The notes under the pieces were generated by a model. The model saw nothing but the letters and a program-made list of their open reading frames with translations. It ran no database searches and was not told the DNA's origin. Shown here piece after piece: positions 1-1,801 of a stretch of DNA of 64,000 nt. The position numbers and the translations under genes are program-made. Source of the stretch: Pseudomonas sp. MYb327 (GTDB lineage Bacteria > Pseudomonadota > Gammaproteobacteria > Pseudomonadales > Pseudomonadaceae); the NCBI RefSeq assembly GCF_040438925.1, contig NZ_CP159258.1:4168001-4232000 (forward strand). Reading direction: 5' to 3'. Each line of letters opens with the position of its first letter. Position 1 is the stretch's first letter.

Positions 1-1
1 T

Positions 2-1261
2 TTTGCCGAAATAATACTTCAAAACATAGACAATCGGGTTCTTCAGAAAGCCATCCAACACCAAGGCTCTTATGACGTCAGACGCTATGTCGATGATTAT
101 TTTCTATTTTATAACGATGATAAAGTTGGAGAACATATACTTAGCGAATTCCAAAACTCGTTGGAAAATGTAAAACTTTATCTAAATGAATCAAAAATTT
201 CGCGCCATAAAGCACCATTTTTGACCGGCATCACAATGGCAAAGAAAGATATTCAGGATATATTCTCTGCGCTGTTTGATACATTTGACGAGTCAAAAAA
301 AGGTGTAACCCCTGACATCGATGTACCTGAGAACGCAGATAGTCACTCTGACCAGCCTGAGGAAAAAATAACCTTTATAAAATACTTCAAGGGCCCAGGT
401 GTAGTCGCAAACAGATTAATAAGAGATATCAAAGCGATAGTCAGAAGCAATGATATAGAATTTGAAACCATTACAGGTTACTTTTTCACTGTAATCAAAA
501 ACAAAATTCACGAAGTTTATGGATACAGTGCAACTTTGGATGATGCGCAACAAGAAAACGTACTAAAATTCTTGCTAGTAATTATTGACGTAACTTTCTT
601 TGTTTACTCCATGGATGTTAGGGTTAGAAGCACATTCTTGGTCAGTCAAATCTCAATACTCTGCTGCAGAATCGCCAAACTGATGAAGCCAGTGTACGGA
701 GATGAAATTGTAAAAAAAATACAAGACGAAATTACCTTTACAATGAAAAACAAACGAGCAGACAAGGTGTCCTCGGGAGTAGAGGTTATCAATCTTTTAA
801 TCGCGCTTAGAGAAATATCTGGAGAGGCCGATCTAGTTTCAGAAGATGACGTATCAAAATTTATATTCAATGAACCAACAGAAAACATCGGCAGCATCAA
901 CTACTTCCAGGTAATTTCCGTTTTATTTTACATAAAAAACAATCCGATTTATGAAAACCTAAAGCAAAAAATGAAGACCCTAGTTCTTTCTATATTATCC
1001 ACTCAGAGAGCATCGGTTTATTCTGAGGCGTCTCACCTTTTACTTGACCTTGTGCGCTGCCCTTACCTAGATAGAGCATTTAAAGCAAAAATGATTATCA
1101 GCTCTTTTAGAACCGAATTTGGCAGAAATCCAACTTCATCAGAACTCAAGAAGCAGAAAAAATATATGGCGCTGCATGACTGGTTCGTAGACTGGAGTGA
1201 AGCAGGAATTAAGATTGAAAGACTGCTACAGAAAAAAGAGTTGAAAACTGCATACGAGTAG
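2..1261 (+). CDS. Reverse transcriptase, C-terminal part (UG/Abi, DRT-type antiphage RT; 5' end outside window)
   Basis: The frame is open from the first bases of the window, so this is the 3' part of a longer gene; 419 codons are visible. Bases 86-97 encode YVDD in the context RRYVDDYFLFYND, the catalytic palm motif of a reverse transcriptase. About 25 residues later LNESKI..APF looks like the segment after the active site. The remaining roughly 340 residues are lysine-rich, predicted helical and without a nuclease or maturase motif I recognise; this fits the alpha-helical C-terminal region of UG/Abi-type defence RTs rather than a group II intron protein. The gene is far more AT-rich than everything downstream, which suggests horizontal transfer. 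The next 200 bases look like a structured RNA with an AC repeat, so a Drt3b (UG8)-like partner of a DRT3 system is my best guess. RT identity is strong; the subfamily is inference. An internal ATG at 161 would lose the active site and is not the start. Confidence 0.85.
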   Translation, partial: FAEIILQNIDNRVLQKAIQHQGSYDVRRYVDDYFLFYNDDKVGEHILSEFQNSLENVKLYLNESKISRHKAPFLTGITMAKKDIQDIFSALFDTFDESKKGVTPDIDVPENADSHSDQPEEKITFIKYFKGPGVVANRLIRDIKAIVRSNDIEFETITGYFFTVIKNKIHEVYGYSATLDDAQQENVLKFLLVIIDVTFFVYSMDVRVRSTFLVSQISILCCRIAKLMKPVYGDEIVKKIQDEITFTMKNKRADKVSSGVEVINLLIALREISGEADLVSEDDVSKFIFNEPTENIGSINYFQVISVLFYIKNNPIYENLKQKMKTLVLSILSTQRASVYSEASHLLLDLVRCPYLDRAFKAKMIISSFRTEFGRNPTSSELKKQKKYMALHDWFVDWSEAGIKIERLLQKKELKTAYE

Positions 1262-1274
1262 CAGCACAATGACA

Positions 1275-1450
1275 TTGCAGGCGTGCTTACAGGTTAAGTG
1301 CAAAATACCCATGCGAGGACGTTTCTCCCATGATGATTCCGACATCTATGTCGGACACACACCAATGACTTTACCTCAGCGCCTGCCTCCCCCACTTACC
1401 TCGATAGCTACGCAGATTTTCGAGGTTGCAGTAAAGAAGTCCACACGATA
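1275..1450 (+). ncRNA. Candidate structured ncRNA with an (AC)4 tract, downstream of the RT
   Basis: No convincing ORF lies here. A perfect hairpin, CCGACA-TCTA-TGTCGG (1339-1354), is followed directly by ACACACAC (1355-1362). Next comes a nested pair of stems: CTTTAC (1369-1374) with GTAAAG (1431-1436), enclosing ACCTCGA (1398-1404) with TCGAGGT (1420-1426). A short AC repeat left single-stranded between stems is what I would expect of the templating RNA of DRT3-type systems, where one RT copies an ACACAC template into poly(GT). The stems are seen; RNA function and the family link are inference. Confidence 0.5.
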
Positions 1451-1457
1451 CCCTCCC

Positions 1458-1660
1458 CGCCGTCGCTGCCAATTCAGCGACCGGGTGTGGTAACCCGAGT
1501 TATTCAAGGCGCAACAGCGCCCCAATCACGTCATCAGGCGTTTTTTTTATGCCTGCGGCGTGAGTTATGGCGGCTGTGCGTGGGACGCCCTCGGGCGTGC
1601 CGGTTTCCTTGATTCCCGGTTTACCACCCTGCGCACAGCTGTCACCCATTCGTGTGGTAA
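1458..1660 (+). ncRNA. Candidate structured RNA resembling the C4 antisense RNA family
   Basis: Successive stems are visible: GTCGCTG-ccaatt-CAGCGAC, CGGGT-gtggta-ACCCG, GGCGC-aaca-GCGCC and CAGGC-(T-rich loop)-GCCTG, followed by a longer CTGTGCG/CGCACAG pairing. The order of a GTCGC hairpin and then a GGGTGTGGTAACCC hairpin reminds me of C4 antisense RNAs of phage and Pseudomonas loci; the family name is recalled, not searched. It ends just before the Shine-Dalgarno of the leader peptide at 1697, so it could control that peptide and the DUF3077 gene coupled to it. Confidence 0.45.
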
Positions 1661-1696
1661 CGAAAGTGGCAGCTCCTCATATCAAGGAGTTGGATA

Positions 1697-1801
1697 ATGC
1701 GCAGTATCAATCCGTTTGAAATTTGGCTTTCCCCTCTACGCAATTCCCAATCGCGTAACGCCCTCCGCCATGGCCTCTCCATCCTCGGTGGTGGCCAATG
1801 A
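1697..1801 (+). CDS. 34-residue leader peptide coupled to the DUF3077 gene
   Basis: This short ORF begins MRSINPFEIWLSP and ends GGGQ. AAGGAG lies about eight bases before the ATG, and its TGA overlaps the ATG of the next gene (ATGA), which is strong evidence for translational coupling. It has no recognisable domain. It follows directly on a hairpin-rich RNA, so it may serve as a regulated leader whose translation opens the downstream start. No function is known to me. Confidence 0.55.
   Translation: MRSINPFEIWLSPLRNSQSRNALRHGLSILGGGQ

Follow-up and report, generated by a model that had tools for sequence, protein, structure and literature searches.

The stretch immediately 3' of drt3b in the window (the whole 64 kb of DNA analysed, G000:C1:4168001-4232000) very probably encodes the non-coding RNA (ncRNA) of a DRT3 antiphage system, carried on a mobile element of a Pseudomonas genome. 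In this system Drt3a would copy an (AC)4 tract into poly(TG) and Drt3b would add poly(CA). The basis for this within the present analysis is the operon, the tested residues, the conservation of the tract, an RNA structure with covariation, and the co-occurrence of the RNA with one branch of the reverse transcriptases (RTs). Transcription, binding, DNA products and defence are carried over from EcoDRT3, and the slippage step from DRT10. An earlier note on this DNA recognised the DRT3 ncRNA correctly from a fragment; its outer structure is corrected here.

The genome is 6.15 Mb in one contig. The window starts inside drt3b, so that of the two RTs it holds just the final 419 residues of Drt3b. 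The remainder of the operon lies upstream and was read on L003. All of the components are on the + strand in the order SLATT_5 - drt3a - drt3b - ncRNA, with the reading frame of each of the three genes overlapping the next. The features are as follows.

L003:5437-6036, + strand: SLATT_5 gene, upstream of the window and overlapping drt3a.
L003:6030-7262, + strand: drt3a, matched by NF041747 and by the PADLOC Drt3a model.
L003:7207-9261 (G000:C1:4167207-4169261), + strand: the whole drt3b gene, its start codon uncertain.
Window 1-1261, + strand: 3' part of drt3b, from NF041748, PADLOC Drt3b and the mapping of residues to EcoDRT3b numbering.
Window 86-97, + strand: YVDD codons of drt3b, from residue mapping.
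Window 1253-1255, + strand: codon of the priming tyrosine (Y683) of drt3b, from residue mapping.

The RT described earlier as Drt3b-like is Drt3b proper, at 599.7 bits against NCBIfam NF041748 (cut-off 350), and it is preceded by Drt3a, at 346.6 bits against NF041747 (cut-off 200). PADLOC concurs, with 709 bits for Drt3b and 469.9 bits for Drt3a. These two proteins are the only RVT_1 matches reported in the genome, and the pairing of a Drt3a (UG3) RT with an adjacent Drt3b (UG8) RT that characterises DRT3 is present. Among solved structures, those nearest in sequence to Drt3b are PDB 26cz (384 bits) and 9z6y/9z6z (276 bits to the 9z6y Drt3b), and the nearest to Drt3a is the 9z6y Drt3a (132 bits).

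Residues E22, R71, D182, F187, R241, YVDD and Y666 of EcoDRT3b have been linked either to the active site or to the making of poly(CA) (PMC13174585), and in the alignment the window's Drt3b has the same residue at each. The nucleotide-gate residues E22 and R241 are E45 and R264 in the window's protein, R71 is R93, YVDD is Y294VDD, and the C-terminal priming tyrosine Y666 is Y683. Across 36 Drt3b sequences position E22 is E in 33 and D in three, V277 is V in 35 and I in one, and the other tested residues are the same in 36/36. The E. coli F404 copy is 35% identical to the window's Drt3b and agrees in length and residue numbering with EcoDRT3b as described.

Upstream of the operon there is a tRNA-Leu(CAA) beside queA, then a tyrosine integrase, an AAA/DnaB-like protein, a phage capsid protein, a tail-assembly protein and an excisionase. 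The DRT3 operon, then a C4 antisense RNA locus, come after these phage-type genes. The region from L180:14636 to about position 1700 of the window is a phage-derived or satellite-like mobile element carrying the DRT3 operon. An attachment-site repeat and the right end of the element were looked for and not found. The DRT3 copy of E. coli F404 (L145), with its EcoDRT3b numbering, lies between an integrase adjoining tRNA-Thr and genes for ogr/Delta and phage polarity suppression, which suggests a P4-like satellite.

Three close orthologous loci were compared as DNA: L034 (Pseudomonas sp. 7P_10.2_Bac1), L035 (Pseudomonas sp. 8O, the same as G369) and L156 (the same as G395), with Drt3b 87%, 78% and 83% identical to the window's copy, respectively. 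After the drt3b stop the four sequences can be aligned for about 115 nt, with a central ACACACAC that is unchanged in all of them. RNAalifold on the four gives a single closed structure, in which stems P1, P2, P3 and P4 are followed by the tract. The elements of the RNA in the window are listed below; R1 is a covariance model built from the window sequence and the three orthologues.

1275-1389, + strand: DRT3 ncRNA core, 133.4 bits and E 3.1e-33 against R1, a match that exists by construction, the window sequence being itself part of the model; fold z -4.59.
1277-1284, + strand: 5' strand of the closing stem P1, pairing with 1379-1386.
1379-1386, + strand: 3' strand of P1; 8 pairs in 4/4 sequences, 4 of the pairs with a one-sided change.
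1291-1299, + strand: 5' strand of the inner stem P2, pairing with 1368-1376.
1368-1376, + strand: 3' strand of P2; 3/8 pairs retained through changes on both sides, 93.8% of cells paired.
1310-1332 (1310-1318 with 1324-1332), + strand: side hairpin P3; 8 pairs, one of them with a double-sided change, and 96.9% of cells paired.
1338-1355, + strand: hairpin P4; 6 pairs, two of them with double-sided changes, and 100% of cells paired.
1355-1362, + strand: (AC)4 tract, identical in 4/4 aligned sequences and the putative template for poly(TG) synthesis by Drt3a.

The fold of 1277-1386 has an energy of -36.9 kcal/mol (z = -4.59), and 0/200 shuffles were as good. In the four-sequence alignment 97.5% of cells pair, a value reached by 2/500 column shuffles, and sliding the partners by 1-3 columns leaves just 35-47% of cells paired. 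The comparison of orthologues for compensatory changes, which had been named as a test, found six pairs in which both bases differ among the four sequences and pairing is maintained; 2/500 shuffles reach six. The structure tested was derived from the same four sequences, which biases the comparison towards it and against its slid versions.

The hairpin beside the tract was correctly identified from the window sequence, is conserved, and in the minimum free energy (MFE) fold has 7 pairs (1338-1344 with 1349-1355), the first A of the tract closing against U1338. That the tract is single-stranded holds for the centroid fold, where it is open, but not fully for the MFE fold and RNAalifold, which add two invariant pairs inside it (1334-1335 with 1358-1359). 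These two pairs were omitted from R1. The nested stems proposed to close at 1369-1436 are rejected. Folded alone this stretch has z = -0.68, with 53/200 shuffles as good, and it includes the 3' strand of P1 and most of that of P2, plus a hairpin near 1398-1426 outside the well-aligned stretch. Bases 1368-1376 and 1379-1386 pair upstream instead, and the RNA is therefore placed at about 1275-1389. By analogy with stem-loop 4 of EcoDRT3 (PMC13174585), P4 may be the template boundary, acting as the 5' stop for the RT.

The ACACACAC at 1355-1362 was also correctly placed, and is the sole copy on either strand of the window. The chance expectation for (AC)4 is 2.06 per window, so the tract alone is unremarkable and it is its position that is informative. 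At least three AC repeats are present within 260 nt downstream of drt3b in 36/36 DRT3 loci, where dinucleotide shuffles give an expectation of 1.99 of 36 and other 260-nt windows of the same loci contain such a tract in 56 of 1437 cases (3.9%). In every locus examined, the tract is thus retained along with the RT pair, and its loss beside a conserved RT, which had been named as a refutation, is not seen in these 36. The full (AC)4 is found in 4/4 loci of the window's DRT3 branch and in 5/32 of the remaining loci.

To be included among the 36, a locus had to have a long drt3b frame and DNA that could be read beyond it. The set comprises 12/12 same-genus genomes above the Drt3b cut-off (398 genomes searched); nine of the ten other genomes of the order above the Drt3a cut-off (390 searched), L161 being left out with no drt3b in the part fetched; G976, the sole match in the class besides the window's own genome (321 searched); L034; 6/57 viral loci; E. 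coli F404; and 6/11 plasmid records. The scan that was the source of L034 gave 24 loci, of which, besides L035, the other 22 are weaker matches and were unused. Among the viral loci L059 was dropped for its short drt3b frame and the other 50 are partial or weaker. Some loci are near-duplicates (e.g. L147/L148 and L157/L158), and there are therefore fewer independent cases than 36.

A helix between bases after the tract and bases after drt3b reaches p <= 0.05 in 20/36 loci (p 0.42 in E. coli F404). For a hairpin that ends at the tract, p <= 0.05 is obtained in 11/36 and an energy of -4 kcal/mol or better in 23/36; under a strict test, a hairpin directly 5' of the tract was not found in 7/36 loci, E. 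coli F404 included. The layout of hairpin, tract and closing helix is common, and is not established locus by locus with these simple tests. Three loci (L157, L158 and L164) appear by eye to have very short DRT3 ncRNAs of about 60 nt, with a closing stem, one hairpin and the AC tract, and are possibly a minimal form. The closing-stem test does not single them out (p 0.42, 0.45 and 0.78). The presence of the tract in all 36 loci examined suggests a simple marker for DRT3 ncRNAs that have no covariance-model match.

R1 was run with Infernal's stricter filters against the 398 same-genus genomes, and there are three strong matches (E 3.9e-32, 7.9e-32 and 5.7e-30), in G000, G395 and G369, all just downstream of drt3b, and these same three genomes carry this DRT3 branch. 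The nine other DRT3 genomes among the 398 have no R1 match. All three matched sequences belong to R1, so the informative part is that there are no strong orphan copies and no cross-matches. The next-best match, E 0.012 in G219, is taken as chance, and in 38 sources no further match was better than E 0.31. R1 does not score other DRT3 ncRNAs, so the case for identity with the published ncRNA rests on place, tract and layout. Rfam, searched up to E 10, has no match within 1275-1389. Further close loci were not found in the order (390 genomes), the class (321), the order of G976 (54) or relatives (293), nor did the viral scan or one pattern scan yield a close copy. A contig scan of genomes gave two close loci among 24, and orthologues in Serratia and Pectobacterium were found at the protein level.

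A plain drt3b terminator or 3' untranslated region in which the AC repeat is accidental would be compatible with the expectation of about two (AC)4 per window, but the tract lies at the same place in 36/36 loci and the stems covary. In addition, a scan of window positions 1-1800 found its sole + strand terminator-like site at 1528-1541, outside the RNA, and this explanation is very unlikely. There is likewise an open frame of 74 aa at 1269-1493, but three orthologues carry 1-2 nt indels through which it is not kept; the coding reading is therefore rejected, and a small protein gene has almost no probability here.

The immunity RNAs just downstream are a further consideration. Rfam places a C4 a1/b1 target at 1448-1501, an isrK-like RNA at 1462-1548 (49.6 bits, just below the cut-off of 50) and a C4 antisense RNA at 1563-1649 (84.5 bits), the group coming directly after the DRT3 ncRNA. 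The RNA could belong to this locus rather than to DRT3; however, no C4 or isrK-like match extends into 1275-1389, the RNA follows drt3b in four loci that differ in sequence beyond it, and the 398 genomes hold no strong copy of it without the operon. Membership of the C4/isrK group is rejected, its probability being negligible. The SLATT gene raises the question of a DRT10- or DRT9-type ncRNA, as SLATT commonly accompanies DRT10 and sometimes DRT9 (PMC12632851, PMC12483538), and the SLATT_5 gene of the operon is well identified (PF18160 84.8 bits, cut-off 29.5). Against this, the RT is Drt3a and sits with Drt3b, and the UG17 model expected for DRT10 gives it 111.8 bits where the PADLOC Drt3a model gives 469.9, on which DRT10 membership is rejected. 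The DRT10 ncRNA is upstream of SLATT and the DRT9 ncRNA is upstream of the RT with a poly-U template (PMC12632851, PMC12483538), whereas the present RNA has an AC template and lies downstream. A DRT10 or DRT9 identity is thus highly improbable.

Assignment to DRT3 agrees with the published account of EcoDRT3, a system of Drt3a, Drt3b and ncRNA (PMC13174585; the work of Deng et al. 2026 on DRT3 is known here through this source and the review PMC13314766). The gene order drt3a-drt3b-ncRNA is shared, as are all of the tested Drt3b residues and a conserved ACACAC template in a loop beside a stem-loop, downstream of drt3b. The window's system differs in having (AC)4 in place of the published ACACAC motif, in its ncRNA sequence, in the divergence of its Drt3b from the EcoDRT3b-numbered copy and in the extra SLATT_5 gene in front. 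In EcoDRT3, Drt3a copies the AC tract repeatedly next to the stem-loop, the tyrosine-primed Drt3b alternates C and A via protein side chains, and duplex accumulates on RecBCD inhibition (PMC13174585). On this model, Drt3a would bind the window's ncRNA and copy the (AC)4 tract from its 3' side until stopped by P4. The short TG product may then slip back one repeat and be recopied, as in DRT10, giving poly(TG) DNA. Drt3b would use its own C-terminal tyrosine as the primer for poly(CA), needing no nucleic-acid template, and the two strands would anneal. An addition to the EcoDRT3 scheme is that SLATT may respond to the DNA in this branch.

Like DRT10 (UG17, SLATT and ncRNA; PMC12632851), the system has a class 2 UG RT, a SLATT_5 gene in the operon and, presumably, ncRNA-templated tandem repeats; DRT10 differs in its single RT and its variable template and repeat unit. 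DRT9 (UG28; PMC12483538) also makes ncRNA-templated repeats, as the window's system probably does, but has one RT and produces poly(dA). The RNA had been suggested to be new or divergent, which is correct only for its sequence, the layout being already known. The RNA is a sequence-divergent, structurally well supported addition to DRT3, the mechanism of which was published in 2026.

The least-known point, and one worth following, is the SLATT membrane-protein gene tied to this DRT3 branch. When the DNA upstream of drt3a was searched by tblastn (2.5 kb at most, and less in the shorter stretches), a SLATT relative is present in 4/36 loci, exactly the four of this branch; this set of 36 includes L161 and omits L179. 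A protein search with the SLATT sequence gave 35 clusters, 18 of which have a longest contig of exactly the same size as 17 Drt3a clusters from the group of 35 with 64% identity or more to the window's Drt3a, among the 120 listed of 604. Equal contig size is a proxy for the same contig and not proof. These pairs include Serratia, Pectobacterium aroidearum and Pseudomonas asplenii. Only 1/85 of the more distant listed Drt3a clusters shares a size with a SLATT cluster (5326), possibly a coincidence. One plasmid relative of the SLATT protein, 29% identical, comes from Azotobacter.

The L156 copy of the SLATT gene is missing its N-terminal part, while both RT frames are open and the ncRNA is aligned and conserved, which counts against an essential role for SLATT. 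The truncated gene adjoins what is presumably, by eye, the end of an IS66-type transposase.

SLATT proteins are predicted to form membrane pores in other DRT systems (PMC12632851, PMC12483538), and the terminal effector step of DRT3 is unresolved according to the authors of PMC13174585. A SLATT-linked DRT3 branch was not found in the literature searched, and the word SLATT is absent from the available text of PMC13174585. It is possible, if doubtful, that SLATT, Drt3a, Drt3b and ncRNA form a four-part system in which a SLATT membrane pore, gated by the poly(TG/CA) duplex as its signal, is a dedicated effector absent from EcoDRT3. If true, this would place DRT3 alongside DRT9 and DRT10 as a SLATT-linked system. 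The predicted membrane protein that comes with this branch gives a direct genetic handle on the effector step of DRT3, and may help to show how the infected cell is stopped.
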